A stretch of 64,000 bases of DNA, taken from positions 4,539,501-4,603,500 of the forward strand of contig NZ_CP102263.1 in NCBI RefSeq assembly GCF_025147485.1. Reading direction: 5' to 3'. Both the position numbers and the translations under genes were made by a program. Of the stretch, positions 903 through 55,621 are shown piece after piece. Under the pieces are notes generated by a model. That model made no database searches. It had not been told where the DNA came from and saw nothing but the letters and a program-made list of their open reading frames with translations. Origin of the DNA: Bacteroides uniformis (GTDB taxonomy: Bacteria; Bacteroidota; Bacteroidia; Bacteroidales; Bacteroidaceae). The number at the start of each line of letters is the position of its first letter. The first letter of the stretch is position 1.

Positions 903-1313
903 ATGAAAAAGAAACAGTACATAACCTATATTCTTTTTTTCATCAGCTTGATAATGCTGGTGATACCCGTCATTCCCCACCATCATCATGCCGACGGAAT
1001 GATATGCATGAAGAATGATATCACCGCCGATTGCTGCGGACACCGTCATAGCCCGGGCAACGAGCACTGCTGTTGCGACACGGGATGCATGACAACCCAC
1101 TTTGTACAACAGACGCCCAGCTCTTCCAATGATGTGTGTTCACATCCGGATGCCTTGTGGGCAGTTACCCTACTCATTGAACCTTTTTCCAAGTTACTCA
1201 TCCTACCCGAGTTTGACATAAGCAGGCAGGAGTGTATCTATCTGGAATCTCTTCATAGCACATTTATCATATGTGCTACGGGACTTCGTGCCCCTCCGTC
1301 TCTTCTTGCTTAA
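903..1313 (+). CDS. Small His/Cys-rich membrane-anchored protein ending in an R-A-P-P motif (DUF6769-like)
   Basis: This 136-residue protein has one hydrophobic N-terminal segment (about residues 5-25). A putative metal-binding stretch follows, with HHHH directly after the membrane segment, several Cys pairs and a CCCD motif around residues 28-65. The C-terminus reads GLRAPPSLLA. The ATG at 903 is chosen because the -7 promoter box lies just upstream and AGAGGA precedes it. It lies 119 bases ahead of the RND adaptor gene, so a role in metal sensing or sequestration is likely. The R-A-P-P near the stop matches the arrest motif of bacterial regulatory arrest peptides and the C-terminus of DUF2946 proteins found upstream of copper-related TonB receptors in Proteobacteria. 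DUF6769 is recalled from Bacteroides annotation and unverified; function is inferred. Confidence 0.75.
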   Translation: MKKKQYITYILFFISLIMLVIPVIPHHHHADGMICMKNDITADCCGHRHSPGNEHCCCDTGCMTTHFVQQTPSSSNDVCSHPDALWAVTLLIEPFSKLLILPEFDISRQECIYLESLHSTFIICATGLRAPPSLLA

Positions 1314-1432: not shown

Positions 1433-2653
1433 ATGAAAAAAGTTATTTTCATGGGAGTCTTGGGATTATTCCTTTTAGGCTCCTGTAACAGCAAGTCCGG
1501 AGACAGCCACGAAGGACATAATCACGAAACAGAAGAGCACAATCATGACGGACATGACCACGAGGGACATGACCACGAACATGAGGAACACAACCATGAG
1601 CACGAAGAGCAGGAAAACCATGCCGGAGGAAGCGATGAAATCATCCTGCCACCAGCAAAGGCGCAAGCTGCCGGCGTAGCAGTCAGCACTGTTGAACCGG
1701 GTAGTTTCCATCAAGTCATCAAGACCAGCGGCCAGGTGATGGCAGCCCAGGGAGACGAGAGCGTAGCCGTAGCTACAGTAGCAGGCGTGGTTTCCTTCAA
1801 GGGAAAAGTTATCGAAGGAATGAGTGTCAGCAAAGGTACTCCTTTGGTGGTATTGTCATCCAAAAACATGGCCGACGGAGACCCGGTGCAGAAAGCCCGG
1901 ATAGCCTACGAGGTTTCCAAAAAAGAATACGAGCGTATGAAAGCGCTTGTAGGCAACAAAATCGTATCTGAAAAGGAATTCGCGCAAGCCGAACAGATTT
2001 ACGAAAATGCCCGTATCAGTTACGAGGCAGTCGCAAAGAACCATTCGGCAAGCGGCCAGGCTGTTGTTTCTCCCATCAGCGGTTATGTGAAGAATCTGTT
2101 GGTGAAAGAAGGGGACTACGTCAGCGTCGGCCAGCCGTTGGTAAGCGTCACCCAGAACCGCAAGCTTTTCCTGCGTGCGGATGTATCCGAAAAGTACTAT
2201 CCTTACCTAAACAGCATCGGTTCTGCCAACTTCTGTACTCCTTATAATAATAAGGTATATACATTGAAAGAACTGGGCGGGCGCATGCTTTCTTATGGAA
2301 AGGCTTCGGGTGAGAACGGATATTATGTACCCGTAACTTTTGAATTCGACAATAAGGGAGACGTTATTCCCGGCTCGTTTGTAGAAGTATTCCTATTATC
2401 CTCACCAATGGAGAACGTGTTGTCTCTTCCTCACAGTGCGCTGACCGAGGAACAAGGCAGCTTCTTTGTCTACCTGCAACTGGATGAAGAGGGCTACAAA
2501 AAACAGCTTGTCACCCTGGGTGCCGACAATGGCGAAAGTGTACAAATCCTTTCCGGCATAAAAGCAGGCGATCGCGTCGTAACCCAAGGAGCCTATCAAG
2601 TGAAGCTGGCATCGGCAACGAATGCTATTCCGGCACATAGCCATGAACACTAA
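1433..2653 (+). CDS. RND efflux periplasmic adaptor lipoprotein with His-rich N-terminus (CusB/CzcB type)
   Basis: This 406-residue membrane-fusion protein would link the inner-membrane RND pump to the TolC-type channel across the periplasm. A signal peptide ends in the lipobox LGSC (Cys18). It is followed by a strikingly His/Glu/Asp-rich segment (about residues 25-65, repeats of HDHE/HNHE type) likely to bind divalent metal. A barrel-sandwich and alpha-hairpin region follows (about 90-225, SPISGYVKNLLVKEGDYVSVGQP), then beta-barrel and membrane-proximal domains. It begins a gene trio with the pump and the outer-membrane protein. The metal is not fixed by sequence: His-rich adaptors occur with zinc, cobalt, nickel and copper systems. 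The system type is certain, the substrate is not. Confidence 0.9.
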   Translation: MKKVIFMGVLGLFLLGSCNSKSGDSHEGHNHETEEHNHDGHDHEGHDHEHEEHNHEHEEQENHAGGSDEIILPPAKAQAAGVAVSTVEPGSFHQVIKTSGQVMAAQGDESVAVATVAGVVSFKGKVIEGMSVSKGTPLVVLSSKNMADGDPVQKARIAYEVSKKEYERMKALVGNKIVSEKEFAQAEQIYENARISYEAVAKNHSASGQAVVSPISGYVKNLLVKEGDYVSVGQPLVSVTQNRKLFLRADVSEKYYPYLNSIGSANFCTPYNNKVYTLKELGGRMLSYGKASGENGYYVPVTFEFDNKGDVIPGSFVEVFLLSSPMENVLSLPHSALTEEQGSFFVYLQLDEEGYKKQLVTLGADNGESVQILSGIKAGDRVVTQGAYQVKLASATNAIPAHSHEH

Positions 2654-2821: not shown

Positions 2822-5800
2822 ATGTTAAACAAAATAATTGGTTTTTCTCTTCAGAACCGCATCCTGGTGCTGGTAGCATCGGTGCTGTTGCTGATTGGCG
2901 GTACTTATACCGCCATGCATACGGAAGTGGATGTGTTCCCTGACCTCAATGCGCCGACCGTGGTCATCATGACCGAAGCAAATGGTATGGCAGCAGAGGA
3001 AGTGGAACAGCTGGTCACTTTTCCCGTAGAAACGGCTGTAAACGGTGCAACGGGTGTGCGCCGTGTACGCTCTTCCTCAACGAACGGTTTTTCTGTAGTC
3101 TGGGTAGAATTCGACTGGGATACAGATATCTATCTTGCCCGGCAGATTGTCAGTGAGAAGCTGGCAGTCGTCAGCGAATCCTTACCGGCCAACGTAGGCA
3201 AGCCGACACTAGGCCCACAATCGTCCATTTTGGGCGAGATGCTGATTGTAGGTCTGACAGCAGATTCGACCTCTATGCTGGATTTGCGTACCATTGCCGA
3301 CTGGACCATACGTCCCCGCCTGCTCTCTACGGGCGGTGTGGCACAAGTTGCCGTACTGGGTGGCGACATCAAGGAATATCAAGTGCAGCTGGACCCGGAA
3401 CGGATGCGCCATTACGGCGTGACATTGAGCGAAGTGATGAACATCACCCGCGAAATGAACCTGAATGCCAATGGTGGAGTACTCTATGAATATGGCAATG
3501 AATATATCGTACGCGGCGTACTTTCTACCGACAAGGTAGACCAGATAGCCAAGGCCGTGGTGCGGAGCAACGGAGTCTCCGGCGCCCCTATCCTGCTGGA
3601 AGATATTGCCGACGTTCAAATCGGAGCCAAACTTCCTAAACTGGGTACCGCCTCGGAACGCGGTAAGCATGCCGTACTGCTGACAGTCACCAAGCAACCC
3701 GCCACAAGCACGCTGGAGCTTACAGACAAACTGGAAGCTTCCCTGCAAGACCTGCAGAAGAATCTACCGGCGGACGTAAAGGTTTCCACAGACATCTTCC
3801 GTCAAAGCCGTTTCATCGAAAGTTCCATCGGAAACGTTCAGAAGTCGTTGTTGGAGGGAGGTATTTTCGTTGTCATCGTGCTTTTCCTGTTCCTTGCCAA
3901 CGTACGTACCACAGTCATCTCGCTGGTGACACTGCCGTTGTCACTGATTGCCTCCATCCTTGCCCTGCACTATATGGGCTTTACGATAAATACCATGAGC
4001 CTGGGAGGTATGGCTATCGCCATCGGTTCGCTGGTGGATGATGCCATCGTGGACGTGGAGAATGTCTACAAGCGTTTGCACGAAAACCGACTGAAACCTG
4101 CCGGCGAGCAACTTCCTATTCTGGAAGTGGTGTTCAATGCTTCGAAAGAAGTGCGTATGCCTATCCTCAATTCAACGCTGATCATCATTGTCAGCTTCGT
4201 ACCACTGTTCTTCCTTAGTGGTATGGAAGGTAGGATGTTGGTACCACTAGGCATTGCATTCATCGTGGCATTGGCGGCTTCAACCGTTGTGGCACTGACC
4301 GTAACGCCGGTACTTTGCTCCTATCTATTGGGAAAAGAGAAAACGAAAAAACAAAATAACGAAAACAGCGATTCTGCCGTAGCACGCAAGATGAAGCAAT
4401 GGTATGGTTCAGCACTGACTTTTGTATTGGGGCATAAGAAAGGGGTACTTGGAGGTATTATCGGACTATTTGTAGTGGCACTCGGCTGTTTCTTCACCCT
4501 GGGCCGCTCGTTCCTGCCGCCTTTCAATGAAGGTTCGTTCACCATCAATATCTCCTCGCTTCCGGGTATCTCCCTGGAAGAAAGCGACAAGATGGGGCAC
4601 CGTGCCGAGGAGCTGCTGCTCTCCATCCCCGAAATACAGACCGTGGCCCGTAAAACGGGACGTGCAGAGCTGGACGAACACGCTCTGGGAGTAAACGTCT
4701 CTGAGATCGAGGCACCGTTTGAGTTGAAAGACCGCTCACGCAGCGAGCTCGTGGCAGAAGTCCGCGAAAAACTGGGTACCATTGTAGGGGCAAACGTGGA
4801 AATAGGCCAGCCTATCAGCCACCGTATAGACGCCATGCTATCCGGTACAAAGGCGAACATCGCCATCAAACTGTTCGGCGACGATCTGAACCGCATGTTC
4901 ACTCTGGGCAATGAAATCAAGAGTGCCATCCAGGGTATTCCCGGTATTGCTGACCTGAACGTGGAACAGCAGATTGAGCGTCCGCAACTTGTCATTTCAC
5001 CCAAACGGGAAATGCTTGCCAAATACGGCATTTCACTGCCCGAATTTTCGGAGTTTGTCAATGTCTGCCTGGCCGGTGAAGCCGTTTCCCAAGTTTACGA
5101 AAAGGGAAAGAGCTTCGACCTGACCGTACGCGTGAAAGACAACCTACGCGACGAAATGGAAAAAATACGCAACTTGATGATTGATACGGGCGACGGACAG
5201 AAAATTCCACTGAACTATGTAGCGGAAATCCGCTCGGCCATGGGTCCGAACACCATCAGCCGCGAGAATGTAAAGCGTAAAATCGTCATCTCCGCCAACG
5301 TGGCCGACCGCGACCTGCGAAGTGTAGTCAATGATATACAAGCCCAGGTAGACGCACAAATCAAACTGCCGGAAGGATACCACATCGAATACGGCGGACA
5401 ATTCGAAAGCGAGCAGGCAGCAAGCCGCACGCTGGCACTTACTTCGTTCATGTCCATCGTGGTGATATTCCTGCTCCTCTACCATGAATTCCGCAGTGTG
5501 AAGGAGAGTGCCATCATCCTTATCAATCTGCCGCTGGCATTGATAGGCGGTGTATTCGCCCTGCTCATCACAACGGGAGAAGTGAGTATCCCCGCCATCA
5601 TCGGTTTCATCTCACTGTTCGGTATCGCCACCCGAAACGGAATGCTGCTCATCAGCCATTACAACCACTTGCAGCAGGAAGAAGGCTATGGCGTCTACGA
5701 CAGCGTTATCCGCGGTTCGCTCGACCGTCTGAATCCAATCCTGATGACCGCCCTATCCAGTGCACTGGCACTTATCCCGCTGGCTCTCAGTGGCGACCTG

Positions 5801-5944
5801 CCGGGCAACGAGATACAAAGCCCGATGGCAAAGGTTATCTTGGGCGGCCTTTTAACATCCACGTTCCTGAACGGTTTCATCATTCCGATTGTTTACCTGA
5901 TGATGCACCATAACCAACAACCTAAAACGTCAGACAATGAATAA
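2822..5944 (+). CDS. Heavy-metal RND efflux pump, inner membrane (CusA/CzcA family)
   Basis: This 1040-residue protein has the full RND architecture: a first membrane helix, two large periplasmic loops and two six-helix bundles. The proton-relay motif of transmembrane helix 4 is visible as GSLVDDAIVDVEN starting at residue 402. An internal duplication is evident, with HEFRSVKESAIILINLPLALIG repeating the first-half pattern. The N-terminus (FSLQNRILVLVASVLLLIGG) and the conserved DVFPDLNAPTVVIMTEA stretch are typical of the heavy-metal (HME) branch. The gene follows the adaptor after a 168-base AT-rich spacer and overlaps the start of the TolC-type gene by eight bases. Metal specificity (copper/silver versus zinc/cobalt/nickel) cannot be decided by eye. 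Confidence 0.93.
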   Translation: MLNKIIGFSLQNRILVLVASVLLLIGGTYTAMHTEVDVFPDLNAPTVVIMTEANGMAAEEVEQLVTFPVETAVNGATGVRRVRSSSTNGFSVVWVEFDWDTDIYLARQIVSEKLAVVSESLPANVGKPTLGPQSSILGEMLIVGLTADSTSMLDLRTIADWTIRPRLLSTGGVAQVAVLGGDIKEYQVQLDPERMRHYGVTLSEVMNITREMNLNANGGVLYEYGNEYIVRGVLSTDKVDQIAKAVVRSNGVSGAPILLEDIADVQIGAKLPKLGTASERGKHAVLLTVTKQPATSTLELTDKLEASLQDLQKNLPADVKVSTDIFRQSRFIESSIGNVQKSLLEGGIFVVIVLFLFLANVRTTVISLVTLPLSLIASILALHYMGFTINTMSLGGMAIAIGSLVDDAIVDVENVYKRLHENRLKPAGEQLPILEVVFNASKEVRMPILNSTLIIIVSFVPLFFLSGMEGRMLVPLGIAFIVALAASTVVALTVTPVLCSYLLGKEKTKKQNNENSDSAVARKMKQWYGSALTFVLGHKKGVLGGIIGLFVVALGCFFTLGRSFLPPFNEGSFTINISSLPGISLEESDKMGHRAEELLLSIPEIQTVARKTGRAELDEHALGVNVSEIEAPFELKDRSRSELVAEVREKLGTIVGANVEIGQPISHRIDAMLSGTKANIAIKLFGDDLNRMFTLGNEIKSAIQGIPGIADLNVEQQIERPQLVISPKREMLAKYGISLPEFSEFVNVCLAGEAVSQVYEKGKSFDLTVRVKDNLRDEMEKIRNLMIDTGDGQKIPLNYVAEIRSAMGPNTISRENVKRKIVISANVADRDLRSVVNDIQAQVDAQIKLPEGYHIEYGGQFESEQAASRTLALTSFMSIVVIFLLLYHEFRSVKESAIILINLPLALIGGVFALLITTGEVSIPAIIGFISLFGIATRNGMLLISHYNHLQQEEGYGVYDSVIRGSLDRLNPILMTALSSALALIPLALSGDLPGNEIQSPMAKVILGGLLTSTFLNGFIIPIVYLMMHHNQQPKTSDNE

Positions 5945-10277: not shown

Positions 10278-12701
10278 TTAAAAACTGAGTTTCACCCCTG
10301 CAAAATAGGAACGCGGTGCACCCGGTCCGTAGATATAACCGGAATCGCGGCTCGCTCCTTTATCAAAATCTTTCTGATAAGAATTGAATATATTCTGTAC
10401 ACCGGCATTGAGCTGCAAACAGAACCCTTGAAAATCAAAGTCGTAAGCTATCTTTGTTCCAAGCTCAAAGAAGTCCGGACTCTTTACCAATACATCCGCC
10501 TCACCGTTCACCTCCGAAAGCAAATGGGGAACGTACATCCGCCCGGTATAATTGCCGTTCAAAGCTATTGAGAAGGCTTTAACCGGCATATAGGTAGCTG
10601 TAAAGTAGCCGTAGACGTCGGGAGTACGCAGTATCTTGTCGCTGTAACGTTCTTTCTCCGACAAGTGCTCCTCATCCGCACTCCATTCTTCGGGAGAGTC
10701 ATAGATACTTCGTTGAAGCGTCAGCCCTGCCTGCAACTGAACCTTATCCTTATAGGCAACCTTTCCTTCCAATGTGCCGCCATACACTTTAGCTCCCGAA
10801 CCATTGATACGGGTCTGTATCAGATAAGCGCTACCATCCGGGTCTTTCACCGGAGGCGTCAGGACAAACGGGTCGGAAAGTTTCGTGTAGAAGCCTTCCA
10901 CCAGTAGGTTTGCCTGGAAATCTCCGAAATAGTGGTACCAATCTACCGAAGCATTGAAGCTGCGCGAACGCTCTTCCTTCAATCCTTTGGCGCGGACAAT
11001 GGAAACCAACTCTCCACCCACATTACTGATATGCAGATCTTCATCAAACGCTTGTGGAGCACGGAATCCCTCAGCATAACTGAAACGGATATTCACATCC
11101 TGAGTAGGATTGTAACGGATATTGGCACGGGGACTGAAAACAGCCTTGTCCATGATGCTGTTTTTATCTACGCGCCCGCCAATCAGGAAACTCCACTGTT
11201 CGTTCTTCCACTCATTCTGGGCATAGACGCTTGCTATATTCACCACTTGGTTCAACGGGGCGGGGGTATATTTCTCAATCAGTTGTTGCAAGCGGTCACC
11301 CGTTGCCGTAGGATCTTCGGCCAAAGCAGCATCACGATACTTCTGTACGTCCGTTGCCTTGTCATGCAGATTGTCGTGATTGAACTCAATGCCTCCGGTC
11401 AAATCGGCAGGCATAAACAGACACTTGTCAAAATGATAAATATACTGGGCACCCAGCACACCGGTAAAGTCCGTAGTCATTCCATAAGCGCTGTAATAAC
11501 TATTGCGCACGATGTGCTGAGCCGAAGCATAGGTACTGAACGTATGTTTCTGGTTTTTGGAGAAAGCCGTGAACTTGAGTCCACCCGTGTTGATGGAATG
11601 TTTCAGCTGTTCCACCAGTCCGGGCGCCCCGGTACCGTTCAATCCGGCATCCTCGGCTATATGAGGGGGAAGGCTGAAGCCACTTCCACCACGGCGGAAT
11701 TCCTCCATATGATGGTATTCAAGGCTCAGCTTGGAATAGGCACTTGTCCGGTAGTAAGCATTCAGACCGACAGTCTGGTTCTTCAGCTTCGGTAATTCGG
11801 AAAAACCGTCTCCGTTGGAGTCCCATGCCGAACGATGCCTGCTCTGGCCGTACACATAAGCCCCCATCTTACTGTCCGAAGAAACCAAGGAAAGATTCAG
11901 GGTCGTGTTGTTGTCGAACGAGCCGGAACCGTCGAAATTGGAAATGGTATGCGAGAAAGAACCGGAATTGCGAATCGGTTCCTTCGTAATGATATTCACC
12001 GTCCCGGCAATGGCCGAAGAACCGAACAAGGCTGAACCACCTCCACGCACCACTTCCACACGCTCTATCATGTTGGCGGGAATCTGTTCCAACCCATACA
12101 CACCGGCCAGAGAGGAAAAGATGGGACGTGAGTCTATCAATATTTGGGTATATTTCCCATCCAGCCCGTTGATGCGCACTTGTGAATAACCGCAATTCTG
12201 GCAATCGGTCTCCACCCGCACACCTGGCTGAAAGGCCAGTCCTTGCGACAAAGTATGCGAGTTTGTCTGCTCAAACAGTTTAGGAGTGACCACTTTGACC
12301 AAAGTGGGTGCCAAGCGCCGGGCAGTCTCATTGCGGTTGGCTGTGACTACCACCCCGTCCAGTGCCACCATGTCTTCTTCCAACTCAAAGTTCTCTTCCA
12401 AGGTCTTACCACGTTTCAGAACGACTTTGCGCTCCTGCGACTTATAACCTACGGCACTGACGGACAACGTGAACTCACCTTCAGGCAGATTCTTTAGGAA
12501 ATAGTGACCGGTGGCATCGGTCATGGTCCCGATGGTGGTGCCTTTCAGCGAAACTGTCATATAAGGCAAATGTTCCCTTGTACTTTTTTCTATTACATGA
12601 CCGACAATATTGGCATCGGTACTCTTCAAATCTTCGGCATAAACGGTTGATGAGAGTAACAGACATACTGCTCCCACCACAAAAAATATATATTTTTTCA
12701 T
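10278..12701 (-). CDS. TonB-dependent outer-membrane receptor (probable metal or metallophore uptake)
   Basis: This 807-residue protein has a signal peptide (ending near VYAEDL). A carboxypeptidase-regulatory-like domain lies at about 30-110 (GHVIEKSTREHLPYMTVSLK). A plug domain follows at about 125-235 (VRINGLDGKYTQILIDSRP, VEVVRGGGSALFGSSAIAG), then a 22-strand barrel ending in the aromatic terminus YFAGVKLSF. The plug has a CQNCGYSQVRINGLDG stretch, a Cys pair uncommon in polysaccharide-type SusC proteins and compatible with metal binding. There is no SusD partner, which argues against glycan uptake. It lies 64 bases downstream of a small His-rich gene without an intervening promoter, so the two are almost certainly co-transcribed. 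The substrate is inferred, not shown. Confidence 0.9.
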   Translation of the reverse strand: MKKYIFFVVGAVCLLLSSTVYAEDLKSTDANIVGHVIEKSTREHLPYMTVSLKGTTIGTMTDATGHYFLKNLPEGEFTLSVSAVGYKSQERKVVLKRGKTLEENFELEEDMVALDGVVVTANRNETARRLAPTLVKVVTPKLFEQTNSHTLSQGLAFQPGVRVETDCQNCGYSQVRINGLDGKYTQILIDSRPIFSSLAGVYGLEQIPANMIERVEVVRGGGSALFGSSAIAGTVNIITKEPIRNSGSFSHTISNFDGSGSFDNNTTLNLSLVSSDSKMGAYVYGQSRHRSAWDSNGDGFSELPKLKNQTVGLNAYYRTSAYSKLSLEYHHMEEFRRGGSGFSLPPHIAEDAGLNGTGAPGLVEQLKHSINTGGLKFTAFSKNQKHTFSTYASAQHIVRNSYYSAYGMTTDFTGVLGAQYIYHFDKCLFMPADLTGGIEFNHDNLHDKATDVQKYRDAALAEDPTATGDRLQQLIEKYTPAPLNQVVNIASVYAQNEWKNEQWSFLIGGRVDKNSIMDKAVFSPRANIRYNPTQDVNIRFSYAEGFRAPQAFDEDLHISNVGGELVSIVRAKGLKEERSRSFNASVDWYHYFGDFQANLLVEGFYTKLSDPFVLTPPVKDPDGSAYLIQTRINGSGAKVYGGTLEGKVAYKDKVQLQAGLTLQRSIYDSPEEWSADEEHLSEKERYSDKILRTPDVYGYFTATYMPVKAFSIALNGNYTGRMYVPHLLSEVNGEADVLVKSPDFFELGTKIAYDFDFQGFCLQLNAGVQNIFNSYQKDFDKGASRDSGYIYGPGAPRSYFAGVKLSF

Positions 12702-12738
12702 GTACTTCTAAAATAATATGTTAATCAATGAGGTTGAC

Positions 12739-12759
12739 GCAATCCCACAACGGAATTGC
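12739..12759 (-). promoter_or_regulatory. Stem-loop between the second R-A-P-P gene and the TonB receptor
   Basis: On the minus strand GCAATTCC pairs with GGGATTGC (eight pairs, one G-U) around a GTTGT loop. It starts seven bases after the stop codon of the small His-rich gene and ends 37 bases before the receptor ATG. No T-tract follows. Its placement suits a translation-coupled switch. Confidence 0.6.
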
Positions 12760-12765
12760 CTTAAT

Positions 12766-13107
12766 CTATCGGATTTGAAAAAAAGAAGGGGGAGCACGCA
12801 GGCAAATACCGCCACGAAGCTTTACACACTTGATGCATTCCGTGGTAAGAATGCTCAGTACACACAACAAAACAAGGAAAACCGTCGCGGCAACCGGAAG
12901 CAACGGAAGGGAAGAAGAGACGAAAGAGGCTAGATAGAAAATGGTTTCCAACTGCACCTCTGTATGCTCATGCTGGCCCTTGAATGGATGGGAATGCACA
13001 ATGATAACACCATTCACCACATGCGAGTGGGTAAACAGCGTAATTCCTCCCAGATAGGCAATGAACAGCAGAGGGAGGAAACACTTCATTATATTCCTCA
13101 ACTTCAT
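12766..13107 (-). CDS. Small His-rich membrane protein ending in an R-A-P-P motif
   Basis: This 113-residue protein starts at the ATG at 13107, preceded by GGGAAG. The longer in-frame TTG lies within the -7 promoter box and is excluded. It has an N-terminal membrane segment (about 9-25) and a short His-containing loop (HSHVVNGVIIVHSHPFKGQHEH, about 27-48; it exceeds an ordinary spacer in His content). A second hydrophobic helix pair follows (about 60-95), then CIKC and the ending CLRAPPSFFQIR. The arrangement is the same as the gene at 903-1313: hydrophobic anchor, His cluster, terminal R-A-P-P, stem-loop, metal-type transporter gene. I infer a sensor/leader role for the TonB receptor; no enzymatic motif is seen. 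Confidence 0.72.
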   Translation of the reverse strand: MKLRNIMKCFLPLLFIAYLGGITLFTHSHVVNGVIIVHSHPFKGQHEHTEVQLETIFYLASFVSSSLPLLPVAATVFLVLLCVLSILTTECIKCVKLRGGICLRAPPSFFQIR

Positions 13108-13134
13108 CAAGACTTCCCAATAAAAACAGATGCG

Positions 13135-13166
13135 CAAAGATAACAGTATTTACAATAAGAAACAAC
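13135..13166 (-). promoter_or_regulatory. Promoter of the His-rich gene and TonB receptor
   Basis: Minus-strand TATCTTTG at 13135-13142 with GTTG 20 bases upstream (13163-13166). It is the only consensus-like start seen upstream of the receptor, so both genes should share one transcript. Confidence 0.65.
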
Positions 13167-13362: not shown

Positions 13363-13986
13363 ATGAAACGTATCATTTTTGGATTAATGCTCGCCATGAT
13401 GTTCTGCACACTGGTGCAAGGCGCAAACAGAACCGTAACAGAGAACGACGGTCAGGGGAACAAGAAAAGAGTCATCGAATTGAGAGACACTGTCATCAAT
13501 GGAGAAACCGTAACAGACACACTTAGTGTCATGACTTATGAAAACGGTGCCGGCAGTAGCAATGCTCCGGAAAAATGGAGAACCCACCACAGCAGTATGG
13601 ACTGGAACGGGTTCGACCTCGGGAGCAAGACCTCGGAGACCGTGATTGCCGTAACAGCCATCGTCTTTGTATTCGGACTGCCGCTACTCATCATATTCGT
13701 AGTATTCTTCTTCCGCTATAAAAACCGGAAAGCCAAGTACCGCCTGGCGGAACAGGCCCTGGCCAGCGGACAGCAACTGCCTGAAAACTTCTTCAAAGAA
13801 GCCGCAGCAACGGATATCCGCAGCAAAGGCATCAACAACATATTCGTCGGCATCGGCCTGTTCATCTTCCTTTGGGCCATTACCGGAGAATTCGGTCTCG
13901 GATGTATCGGCTTACTCGTCATGTTCACCGGCTTCGGACAATTGGTGATTTTCTACAGCCAACAGAAGAAGAACGAAGAAAAATGA
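13363..13986 (+). CDS. Membrane protein of the DUF6249 type, in a sigma-factor operon
   Basis: This 207-residue protein has a signal peptide (LAMMFCTLVQGA) and a short periplasmic region (about 21-85). One transmembrane helix lies at about 86-112 (VIAVTAIVFVFGLPLLIIFVVFFF), followed by a cytoplasmic segment with KNRKAKYRLAEQALASGQQLPENFF. Two further hydrophobic segments lie at about 150-197. The RLAEQALASGQ motif is what I associate with DUF6249. Its stop overlaps the sigma-factor start (ATGA), so the two are translationally coupled. Possibly it helps control the sigma factor at the membrane; no experimental function is known to me. Confidence 0.75.
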   Translation: MKRIIFGLMLAMMFCTLVQGANRTVTENDGQGNKKRVIELRDTVINGETVTDTLSVMTYENGAGSSNAPEKWRTHHSSMDWNGFDLGSKTSETVIAVTAIVFVFGLPLLIIFVVFFFRYKNRKAKYRLAEQALASGQQLPENFFKEAAATDIRSKGINNIFVGIGLFIFLWAITGEFGLGCIGLLVMFTGFGQLVIFYSQQKKNEEK

Positions 13987-14528
13987 GTCAGATGGGTGAC
14001 ATATCGTTAGTCGCACAGGTCGTGGTGTTTCACAACACCAGGGCCTTCGACCAGTTGGTAAAGAAGTACCAGTCGCCCGTGCGGCGGTTCTTCCTGCACC
14101 AGACCTGCGGCGACAGCGAGTTGAGTGACGACCTGGCACAAGATACGTTTATCAAGGCCTATACAAACATCGCTTCGTTCAAGAATCTGTCCAGCTTCTC
14201 AACCTGGCTCTACCGTATTGCCTATAACGTTTTTTATGATTATATTCGCAGCCGGAAAGAAACGGACGATTTGGATACGTACCGAGTGGACGCTCAATGC
14301 AGCACACTGCAGCAGGACGTGGGACAGCACATGGACATTTACCGTGCCCTGGCCACACTGAAGGAAATGGAACGCACCTGCATCACGCTCTTCTACATGG
14401 AAGACCAAAGCATCGAAAAGATTACAGGTATCACCGGATGTCCGGCGGGAACGGTAAAAAGCCACCTCTCGCGGGCGAAAGACAAAATGGCTTCCTACTT
14501 AAAACAAAATGGTTATGATGGAAAATGA
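13983..14528 (+). CDS. RNA polymerase sigma factor, ECF-like sigma-70 family
   Basis: This 181-residue protein has the region 2 signature (DDLAQDTFIKAYTNIASFKNLSS, about 48-70, and FSTWLYRIAYNVFYDYIRSRK) and region 4 helix-turn-helix (IEKITGITGCPAGTVKSHLSRAKDKM, about 145-170). The start at 13983 overlaps the stop of the preceding membrane-protein gene. The stop overlaps the next gene by about 15-20 bases. It should redirect RNA polymerase to a regulon not visible here. The flanking membrane proteins are candidates for its control. A longer upstream reading frame inside the DUF6249 gene is excluded. Confidence 0.92.
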   Translation: MSQMGDISLVAQVVVFHNTRAFDQLVKKYQSPVRRFFLHQTCGDSELSDDLAQDTFIKAYTNIASFKNLSSFSTWLYRIAYNVFYDYIRSRKETDDLDTYRVDAQCSTLQQDVGQHMDIYRALATLKEMERTCITLFYMEDQSIEKITGITGCPAGTVKSHLSRAKDKMASYLKQNGYDGK

Positions 14529-14841
14529 TGATAAACTCCTGACTTCATTCTTTGCCGAACACCGGCAGGAAATAGCCGATAACGGGTTCAGCCGCCGCGT
14601 ACTGCGACATCTGCCCGACCGTAGCCGCCACTTGGCGCAGATATGGACAGCATTCTGCTTTACTCTGGCCCTCGTACTGTTCGTCTCCCTCGACGGAGTG
14701 CAGCTGATACTGGACACCTTGCGCGAAACCTTCGATACTGCCATCCGGAGCGGAGCTTCGGAGCTTGACCCCAAGTCGTTAATCATTGCCGGAGTGGTAT
14801 TGCTCTATTTCGGTTACCGCAAGATTTCATCTATGGCATAG
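14509..14841 (+). CDS. Small membrane protein downstream of the sigma factor (DUF5056 type)
   Basis: This protein of about 110 residues begins at 14509, 14515 or 14518 (three Met codons). The last gives MENDDKLLTSFF, the usual family start. A soluble N-terminal part (FFAEHRQEIADNGFSRRVLRHLP) precedes two hydrophobic helices (about 43-62 and 88-104). It overlaps the sigma-factor gene and probably acts as a membrane-bound partner or anti-sigma-like factor. That is inference from the gene order; no zinc anti-sigma motif is present. Confidence 0.75.
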   Translation: MVMMENDDKLLTSFFAEHRQEIADNGFSRRVLRHLPDRSRHLAQIWTAFCFTLALVLFVSLDGVQLILDTLRETFDTAIRSGASELDPKSLIIAGVVLLYFGYRKISSMA

Positions 14842-55464: not shown

Positions 55465-55553
55465 ATAAAAAGGGGGCAAGAACGAAACGATAAGCAAGGA
55501 ACGATAACATAGACCTGGTAATTTTTTCTCTCCAAAAGCTGACATATGAACAT

Positions 55554-55616
55554 AAAAAAAGGAGTACCGCTGTACTCCAACCTTTGTTAACCTTAAATCT
55601 AATACTATGAAAAACA
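55554..55616 (-). ncRNA. Putative small RNA of about 60 nt
   Basis: A consensus promoter (TTTG at 55649-55652, 19 bases, TATCTTTG at 55622-55629) drives a short non-coding stretch ending in the hairpin GGAGTAC-AGCG-GTACTCC followed by seven T. The body contains TTTTCATAGTATTAG and TTTAAGGTTAAC, a string I recall seeing repeatedly in Bacteroides genomes, which would support a conserved RNA family. It lies in the 315-base gap between topB and mutB. It has no reading frame. Confidence 0.65.
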
Positions 55617-55621
55617 CATTG

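Follow-up and report, generated by a model that had tools for sequence, protein, structure and literature searches.

Leader 2, the small histidine-rich protein encoded directly upstream of a TonB-dependent receptor gene in the 64,000-nucleotide stretch of Bacteroides uniformis DNA analyzed here (the window), is probably a RAPP translation-arrest leader, a nascent-chain metal sensor that would gate its operon in the manner of CruR and CutF. Within this reading we infer the arrest itself, the metal and the sign of the response. The gene (12766..13107, minus strand) has its ATG at 13107, 113 codons and its stop codon at 12766-12768, and the product, a member of an unnamed Bacteroidota family with a terminal LRAPP, ends CLRAPPSFFQIR, the C-terminus being GICLRAPPSFFQIR. 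A gap of 64 nt separates the stop codon from the ATG (12701) of the co-directional receptor gene. The first-pass annotation of this DNA had described a His-rich protein of 113 residues, a stem-loop that starts at the seventh base after its stop codon and a receptor that starts 64 nt after the same stop, and this layout was recovered when the coordinates were re-read.

The leader gene and its transcript

The presumed metal-binding stretch of leader 2 comprises residues 27-48, HSHVVNGVIIVHSHPFKGQHEH, encoded at 12964..13029 on the minus strand, and the RAPP codons (12787..12798, minus strand; R104-P107), which lie six residues before the stop, form the presumed arrest site. Hydropathy places an N-terminal hydrophobic segment at about residues 6-27. 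The AlphaFold model of leader 2 is of low confidence (mean pLDDT 67, pTM 0.31), and nothing was used from it beyond its helices at residues 2-25, 49-65 and 69-96; the His stretch and the C-terminus are uncertain. A fold search with this low-confidence model gave no match, and a sequence search of solved structures with leader 2 gave no match of weight. Leader 2 likewise has no match in Pfam, NCBIfam or PADLOC. A TTG codon lies immediately 5' of the ATG, and a TTG start is possible at the equivalent place in several relatives, for example L001-L004 and L013, so the true start of leader 2 may be one codon earlier.

The presumed regulated gene (10278..12701, minus strand) encodes a TonB-dependent receptor with CarbopepD_reg_2, Plug and beta-barrel domains. 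TonB families are matched broadly, none of the 25 NCBIfam matches listed passes its curated cut-off, and relatives of the receptor include solved structures. On its other side leader 2 is adjoined by a divergent gene group (13363-14841, plus strand) that codes for an ECF-type sigma factor and two membrane proteins, one of them small; comparable frames for a membrane protein and a sigma factor adjoin, by eye, the decayed leader of locus L006 described below. Elsewhere in the window, 55551-55617 on the minus strand matches the Bacteroidetes sRNA family FopS in Rfam (RF04319, 78.2 bits).

Where does transcription of the receptor begin? A Bacteroides-type promoter, TTG-N20-TATCTTTG, lies at 13135..13165 on the minus strand, 58 to 28 nt ahead of the leader 2 ATG. 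The scan for such promoters used the Bacteroides consensus in a loosened pattern. Of 36 loci, 25 have the combined pattern in the 300 nt that precede the leader; in the 32 loci with a delimitable gap, the gap and the final 60 nt of the leader were scanned, and the pattern was absent from all of them. In the same region the -7 element TAnnTTTG alone turns up at seven of these 32 loci, three times at the same place, and a weak internal promoter is possible in those seven. The gap in the window contains one sigma-70-like match (9 of 12 positions), which straddles the receptor start, where shuffles give a mean of 2.1, and no intrinsic terminator was found in it. With a promoter before the leader and none found in the gap, leader and receptor are most likely carried on one transcript. 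The first-pass annotation had held that no promoter separates the two genes and that the receptor depends on the leader transcript; the first statement agrees with the gap, where no Bacteroides-type promoter was found, and the second is supported insofar as the scan found no internal promoter. Across 32 loci the C-over-G bias averages +4 points in the leader mRNA and -2.7 in the receptor. This leader excess would suit a Rho site, but it is weak and may just follow the codons for His, Pro and Leu.

Conserved features of the family and the genes behind it

What is conserved in these leaders? In alignment A1, which holds 22 leaders, 17 residues are invariant: F15, Y18, F25, T26, H27, H29, V31, N32, H38, S39, H40, P41, H46, H48, R104, P106 and P107. 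Thirteen of these columns belong to the motif or to residues 27-48; residues 49-102 contain none of them and only three near-invariant ones. The wider alignment A3 (21 rows, with L144 and L147 left out) keeps H27, H38, H40, R104, P106 and P107 invariant. The His stretch lies 77 to 56 residues before the motif Arg, and the HSHP-to-Arg distance equals 66 for 81 of 91 measurable proteins among those listed (57-79 for the other ten) and ranges from 63 to 76 over 83 distinct leaders. Leu precedes the Arg in 80 of 84 distinct leaders, and positions -6 to -15, with an entropy of 3.1-3.9 bits, belong to a linker that ranks with the most variable parts of the protein. The sets of 83-91 distinct leaders used for conservation and folding were chosen for R[AG]PP, so that the motif is fixed there by choice; within such a set the second motif residue is Ala in 81 and Gly in 10 of 91 leaders. 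RAPP and RGPP are encoded by 27 different codon quadruplets in 32 loci, with both CGN and AGR in use, which indicates that the peptide and not the nucleotide sequence is kept. The pattern is one of selection on a peptide whose distance from a His site hardly varies. Topology is not uniform, a second hydrophobic segment being present in 61 of 86 non-efflux leaders.

A protein search with leader 2 returned 308 relatives, 120 of which are listed. R[AG]PP lies within 12 residues of the end in 92 of the 120 listed relatives, and the 28 without it are mostly fragments, frameshifts and longer frames. P0074 (RAPR), P0002 (RASP) and P0017 (DPP), also among the listed relatives, may be true departures or errors; P0074 and P0002 are metagenome proteins, and the P0074 cluster counts 521 sequences.

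A genome scan gave 35 loci, 31 of which combine a leader with a terminal RAPP or RGPP and a TonB receptor frame behind it, the frame being called by its start motif in most loci and by Pfam for L022 and L033. The receptor frame is short or truncated behind L002, L017 and L020. The four loci without RAPP or RGPP are L006, L031, L034 and L035. L006, from Bacteroides gallinarum, lacks the receptor, and its leader is interrupted by a premature in-frame stop and has RAPF in the motif region, while the flanking genes resemble those of the window on both sides by eye; the same receptor loss and leader decay are seen at L205. L034 has an in-frame stop ahead of the motif and a receptor split in two pieces, L031 has SRPPP instead of the motif with a TonB receptor present, and L035, a Caecibacteroides leader paralogue, reads RAPW and has no receptor or other transporter directly behind it. 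Motif loss together with receptor loss is the pattern that a dedicated regulator would show, and it is represented by one event (L006) and perhaps by a second in L035. By eye, the L035 paralogue follows a PepSY-like gene.

Profile searches found the family in 39 of 60 genomes of the genus, in 36 of 40 of a second family in the same order and in 1 of 60 of a third group. From the matches listed, 30 of 58, 30 of 53 and 1 of 1 loci were read, 61 in total with the window included; this set shares species with the 35-locus scan, and the two counts are not additive. An in-frame stop is marked in four of the listed matches, two of which are among the loci read (L205 and L211), and 60 of the 61 leaders end in R[AG]PP. 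The next gene, called by BLAST against eight reference proteins, is a TonB receptor at 55 loci and an RND efflux adaptor at four (L238, L239, L245 and L249); of the remaining two, L236 has a receptor broken over several frames and L205 has no transporter. For eight leaders that are divergent or untypical (L022, L031, L033, L144, L145, L146, L148 and L149) Pfam identifies a TonB receptor downstream, and it identifies HlyD_D23 adaptors behind L143, which is the locus of L249, and L152. In NCBIfam both of these adaptors score above the RND_mfp cut-off and below the CzcB/NccB family cut-off, and a CusA/CzcA-like pump frame follows the L143 adaptor by eye. One genome, G347, has three family members, L141 (the same as L219, called by BLAST) and L151 (by eye) before TonB receptors and L152 before an adaptor. 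In a phylum-wide profile search, at least 11 of 395 genomes were positive, a lower bound with at most 12 candidates scored per genome, and 12 of the 14 matches carry the motif, the exceptions being L144 (RAPS) and L147. Three plasmid records also match, and the two examined, from B. finegoldii and P. distasonis, show a hypothetical protein followed by a TonB-dependent receptor, with leaders ending LRAPP.

The earlier suggestion that terminal-RAPP leaders serve both uptake and efflux is thus borne out within one family alone, which heads TonB receptors and RND adaptors at 55 and four of 61 loci, respectively. A distinct sensor-to-arrest spacing for uptake and for efflux was considered and rejected: the five efflux leaders measure 61, 67, 67, 67 and 67, and the other 86 measure 63-74. 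A single origin of the efflux leaders was also considered and is possible: three changes are needed on the best tree, but the well-supported branches force only one, the tree being built on few columns and having long branches.

How often does a terminal RAPP occur in the genome of the window itself? In this 4.63-Mb genome RAPP is encoded, in any frame, at 112 places (82 + 30), all of which were examined. When RAPP must be followed by a stop within 15 codons and preceded by 80 or more open codons, three gene-like frames pass, leader 1, leader 2 and L092:389-727; L107 and L135 also pass but oppose longer frames and look spurious. L092:389-727, near 2.928 Mb, is a paralogue of leader 2, HVHYVNGVMITHSHPFHGTHSHS...SLRAPPALFS, and sits 148-151 nt upstream of another TonB receptor, L137:6403-8730. 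All three gene-like leaders precede transport genes, two TonB receptors and one RND adaptor, and the layout is judged to go beyond chance.

Leader 1 (903..1313, plus strand) is a DUF6769 protein (PF20558, match 4.3e-50) with a terminal LRAPPSLLA. Behind it lie an RND efflux adaptor (1433..2653, plus strand; HlyD_D23, RND_mfp over cut-off) and a CusA/CzcA-family heavy-metal RND pump (2822..5944, plus strand; TIGR00914 over cut-off). DUF6769 is present in 46 of 60 genus genomes. Its leader ends in LRAPP at 29 of 30 loci read, the exception being L168 with an in-frame TGA, and an adaptor-like lipoprotein start comes next, by eye, in the 26 loci whose next frame was read. In 23 of 24 cases, 64-67 residues separate the last Cys of its CC..C motif, a landmark chosen post hoc, from the Arg. 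The two small proteins of the window had been called independent; leader 2 indeed has no PF20558 match, but a profile comparison of its family with DUF6769 gives 84.6%, which weakens the claim, and judged by that comparison a distant kinship is possible.

Proposed mechanism and alternatives

How might such a leader work? The first hydrophobic segment of the nascent leader would anchor the chain as it is threaded into the inner membrane, and the His stretch would reach the translocon or the periplasm at about the time when RAPP reaches the peptidyl-transferase center. In the arrest state the first Pro would occupy the P site and the second Pro the A site. At low metal the ribosome would stall at RAPP and the receptor would be expressed, whereas metal on the His stretch would fold or pull the chain and release the stall, and receptor expression would fall. 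The output step could be a block of Rho-dependent termination or the stem-loop after the stop codon. In the efflux operons of the leader 2 family and of DUF6769 the sign would be the opposite, with metal holding the stall; the sign of CruR is sensible for an uptake receptor and that of CutF for efflux leaders. We tentatively suggest, as a minority prospect, that one sensor family works with opposite signs, metal releasing the stall before uptake receptors and holding it before efflux pumps with the same His motifs, spacing and RAPP. If this is true, the sign would depend either on minor differences between the nascent chains or on the output step (Rho or stem-loop). RAPP arrest has been mapped in other peptides with the first Pro in the P site (PMC10987492), and RAPP and RGPP have been named as robust-arrest variants (PMC12992588). 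Counting against the arrest reading, most RAPP-like sequences of E. coli and B. subtilis that were tested are reported to have stalled inefficiently (PMC10987492), L031 and L144 keep a TonB receptor without the motif, and P0074 and P0002 also depart from it.

Leader-receptor gaps range from 38 to 346 nt across loci, several being only 38-47 nt, and no structure is predicted in the first 60 nt of L004 (45-nt gap) or L030 (44-nt gap) when compared with mononucleotide shuffles. We lean slightly to Rho because such short, unstructured gaps exist, although 38-47 nt is short for a Rho site in the gap itself. The same arrest leader could instead act through a stem-loop, the arrested or released ribosome opening, or leaving closed, a structure after the stop (here 12759..12739, minus strand, 21 nt with 8 bp) and so controlling translation or termination, as CutF is reported to do (PMC9973294); we regard this form of the output as possible but doubtful. 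Of 91 distinct leaders, 39 are followed by a 60-nt segment whose fold outscores 95% of its dinucleotide shuffles; segments taken from upstream of the leader reach this level in 14 of 89 cases (Fisher p 8e-5), and other junctions on the same strand in 9 of 37 (p 0.07). A z of -2 or lower is seen for 32 of 91 leaders against 6 of 37 other junctions (p 0.04), and all of these p values count related sequences as independent. The first helix of at least five pairs begins within 9 nt of the stop in 45 of 91 leaders, and terminator-like sites occur within 160 nt in 12 of 91, where 4.8 are expected. This excess of stem-loops and terminator-like sites speaks for an output step other than Rho. The window's own stem-loop is borderline, however, with a z of -0.9 in its 101-nt context, a level reached by 40 of 200 shuffles, and of -1.7 for the 60-nt post-stop segment, a level reached by 6% of shuffles. 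Six of the 91 leaders fold more weakly than -3 kcal/mol after the stop, no common element is evident by eye across the gaps, and the sequence of the stem-loop is not conserved. A ribosome with the first Pro in the P site would, by the footprint that we assume, end in the Gln codon, 17 nt before the stem in the window, and a terminating ribosome would presumably touch the base of that stem. Of the stem-loop noted in the first-pass annotation, what stands is that stem-loops soon after the stop recur; they are not universal, and they may matter in some species.

Two further readings dispense with arrest. The leader could be a working metal chaperone or membrane protein whose RAPP is a fold or degradation signal and whose operon position is incidental, and in its favor the strongly conserved His stretch has the look of a metal site and the protein may be made in full. 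We consider this improbable, since the spacing of RAPP hardly changes although the sequence ahead of it does, RGPP can take the place of RAPP, the motif is lost where the receptor is lost, and the invariant columns gather in the His stretch and the motif. Translational coupling, in which the leader simply delivers ribosomes to the receptor by reinitiation and senses nothing, would suit the short gaps of 38-64 nt in some species, but gaps reach 346 nt elsewhere and the conserved His stretch and RAPP would be left unexplained, so that we attach very little weight to it.

Comparison with known leader systems

In Bordetella pertussis, the stalling of CruR without copper is reported to keep the operon on by blocking Rho, copper on the CXXC motif releases the stall, and the arrest was mapped with the first Pro in the P site (PMC9426467). 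CruR (DUF2946, PF11162) resembles leader 2 in being a small exported-type leader with a metal-ligand motif, a terminal RAPP, conserved spacing and a TonB-dependent transporter next. Its CXXC lies 45 residues from RAPP and its gap is 162 bp, whereas the leader 2 family has His ligands 77-56 residues before the Arg and gaps down to 38 nt (PMC9426467 for CruR). Membership of leader 2 in DUF2946/CruR was considered and rejected: none of the 21 A3 members matches any Pfam family at E 0.01, and the conserved ligands are His, not CXXC. A profile comparison of the leader 2 family with five Bacteroidota DUF2946-type proteins, two of them over the Pfam cut-off, gave a probability of 2.1%, and kinship was not detected. 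These DUF2946-type proteins are rare in other Bacteroidota (5 of 198 genomes, two over the cut-off), and all five, L182-L186, carry a terminal RAPP or RGPP.

CutF is reported to work with the other sign, copper prolonging a stall-like state that turns cutO on through a stem-loop (PMC9973294). A survey of 5,334 CutF-like proteins in the same paper assigns 40% (normalized) or 19% (raw) to Bacteroidota and describes TonB-like and CusB/CzcB neighbors (PMC9973294). CutF-like proteins share with leader 2 their size, a terminal PP and a same-strand next gene, and their N-terminal export segment and metal-ligand motif may correspond to the hydrophobic segment and the His stretch of leader 2 (PMC9973294 for CutF), and by the rule for CutF-like proteins leader 2 is shorter than 150 residues, has PP within 15 residues of its C-terminus and is followed by a same-strand gene less than 1000 nt away. 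CutF itself carries CxxxC, where the conserved residues of leader 2 are His, and its stem-loop covers the Shine-Dalgarno sequence of cutO (PMC9973294). The His-only clusters of the survey (14 and 17) have HupE/UreJ neighbors according to its text, and not TonB or CzcB as in the leader 2 family (PMC9973294).

Small uORF proteins with RAPP or RGPP upstream of TonB receptors have been said to be universal in Gram-negatives (PMC12992588), and they are like leader 2 in being small, membrane-targeted and C-terminally RAPP or RGPP, with a TonB receptor downstream (PMC12992588; PMC10987492). Cu-related RAPP uORFs are reported as absent from groups such as Bacteroidota (PMC12992588). In contrast to that account, terminal-RAPP leaders of two kinds, DUF6769 and the leader 2 family, precede RND metal-type efflux genes in Bacteroidota, which we do not assign to copper. 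DUF6769 is like leader 2 in its N-terminal hydrophobic segment, His/Cys motif, terminal LRAPP, metal-type operon downstream and similar distance from motif to Arg, and differs in having His4 plus Cys ligands and an efflux adaptor downstream, with only moderate profile similarity.

A literature search found no publication on this Bacteroides leader. The general class, CruR, CutF-like proteins and RAPP/RGPP proteins before TonB receptors, is already in print, and the leader 2 family may already stand in the published CutF-like or RAPP/RGPP lists. What is new is a His-only leader family that serves both uptake and efflux, which makes the question of sign testable. RAPP-type metal leaders are thereby extended to a His-only family that is frequent in Bacteroides and in a second family of the order, with named gene pairs to test. 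The same sensor family before uptake and before efflux genes offers a natural comparison of how metal binding to a nascent chain releases or holds an arrested ribosome.
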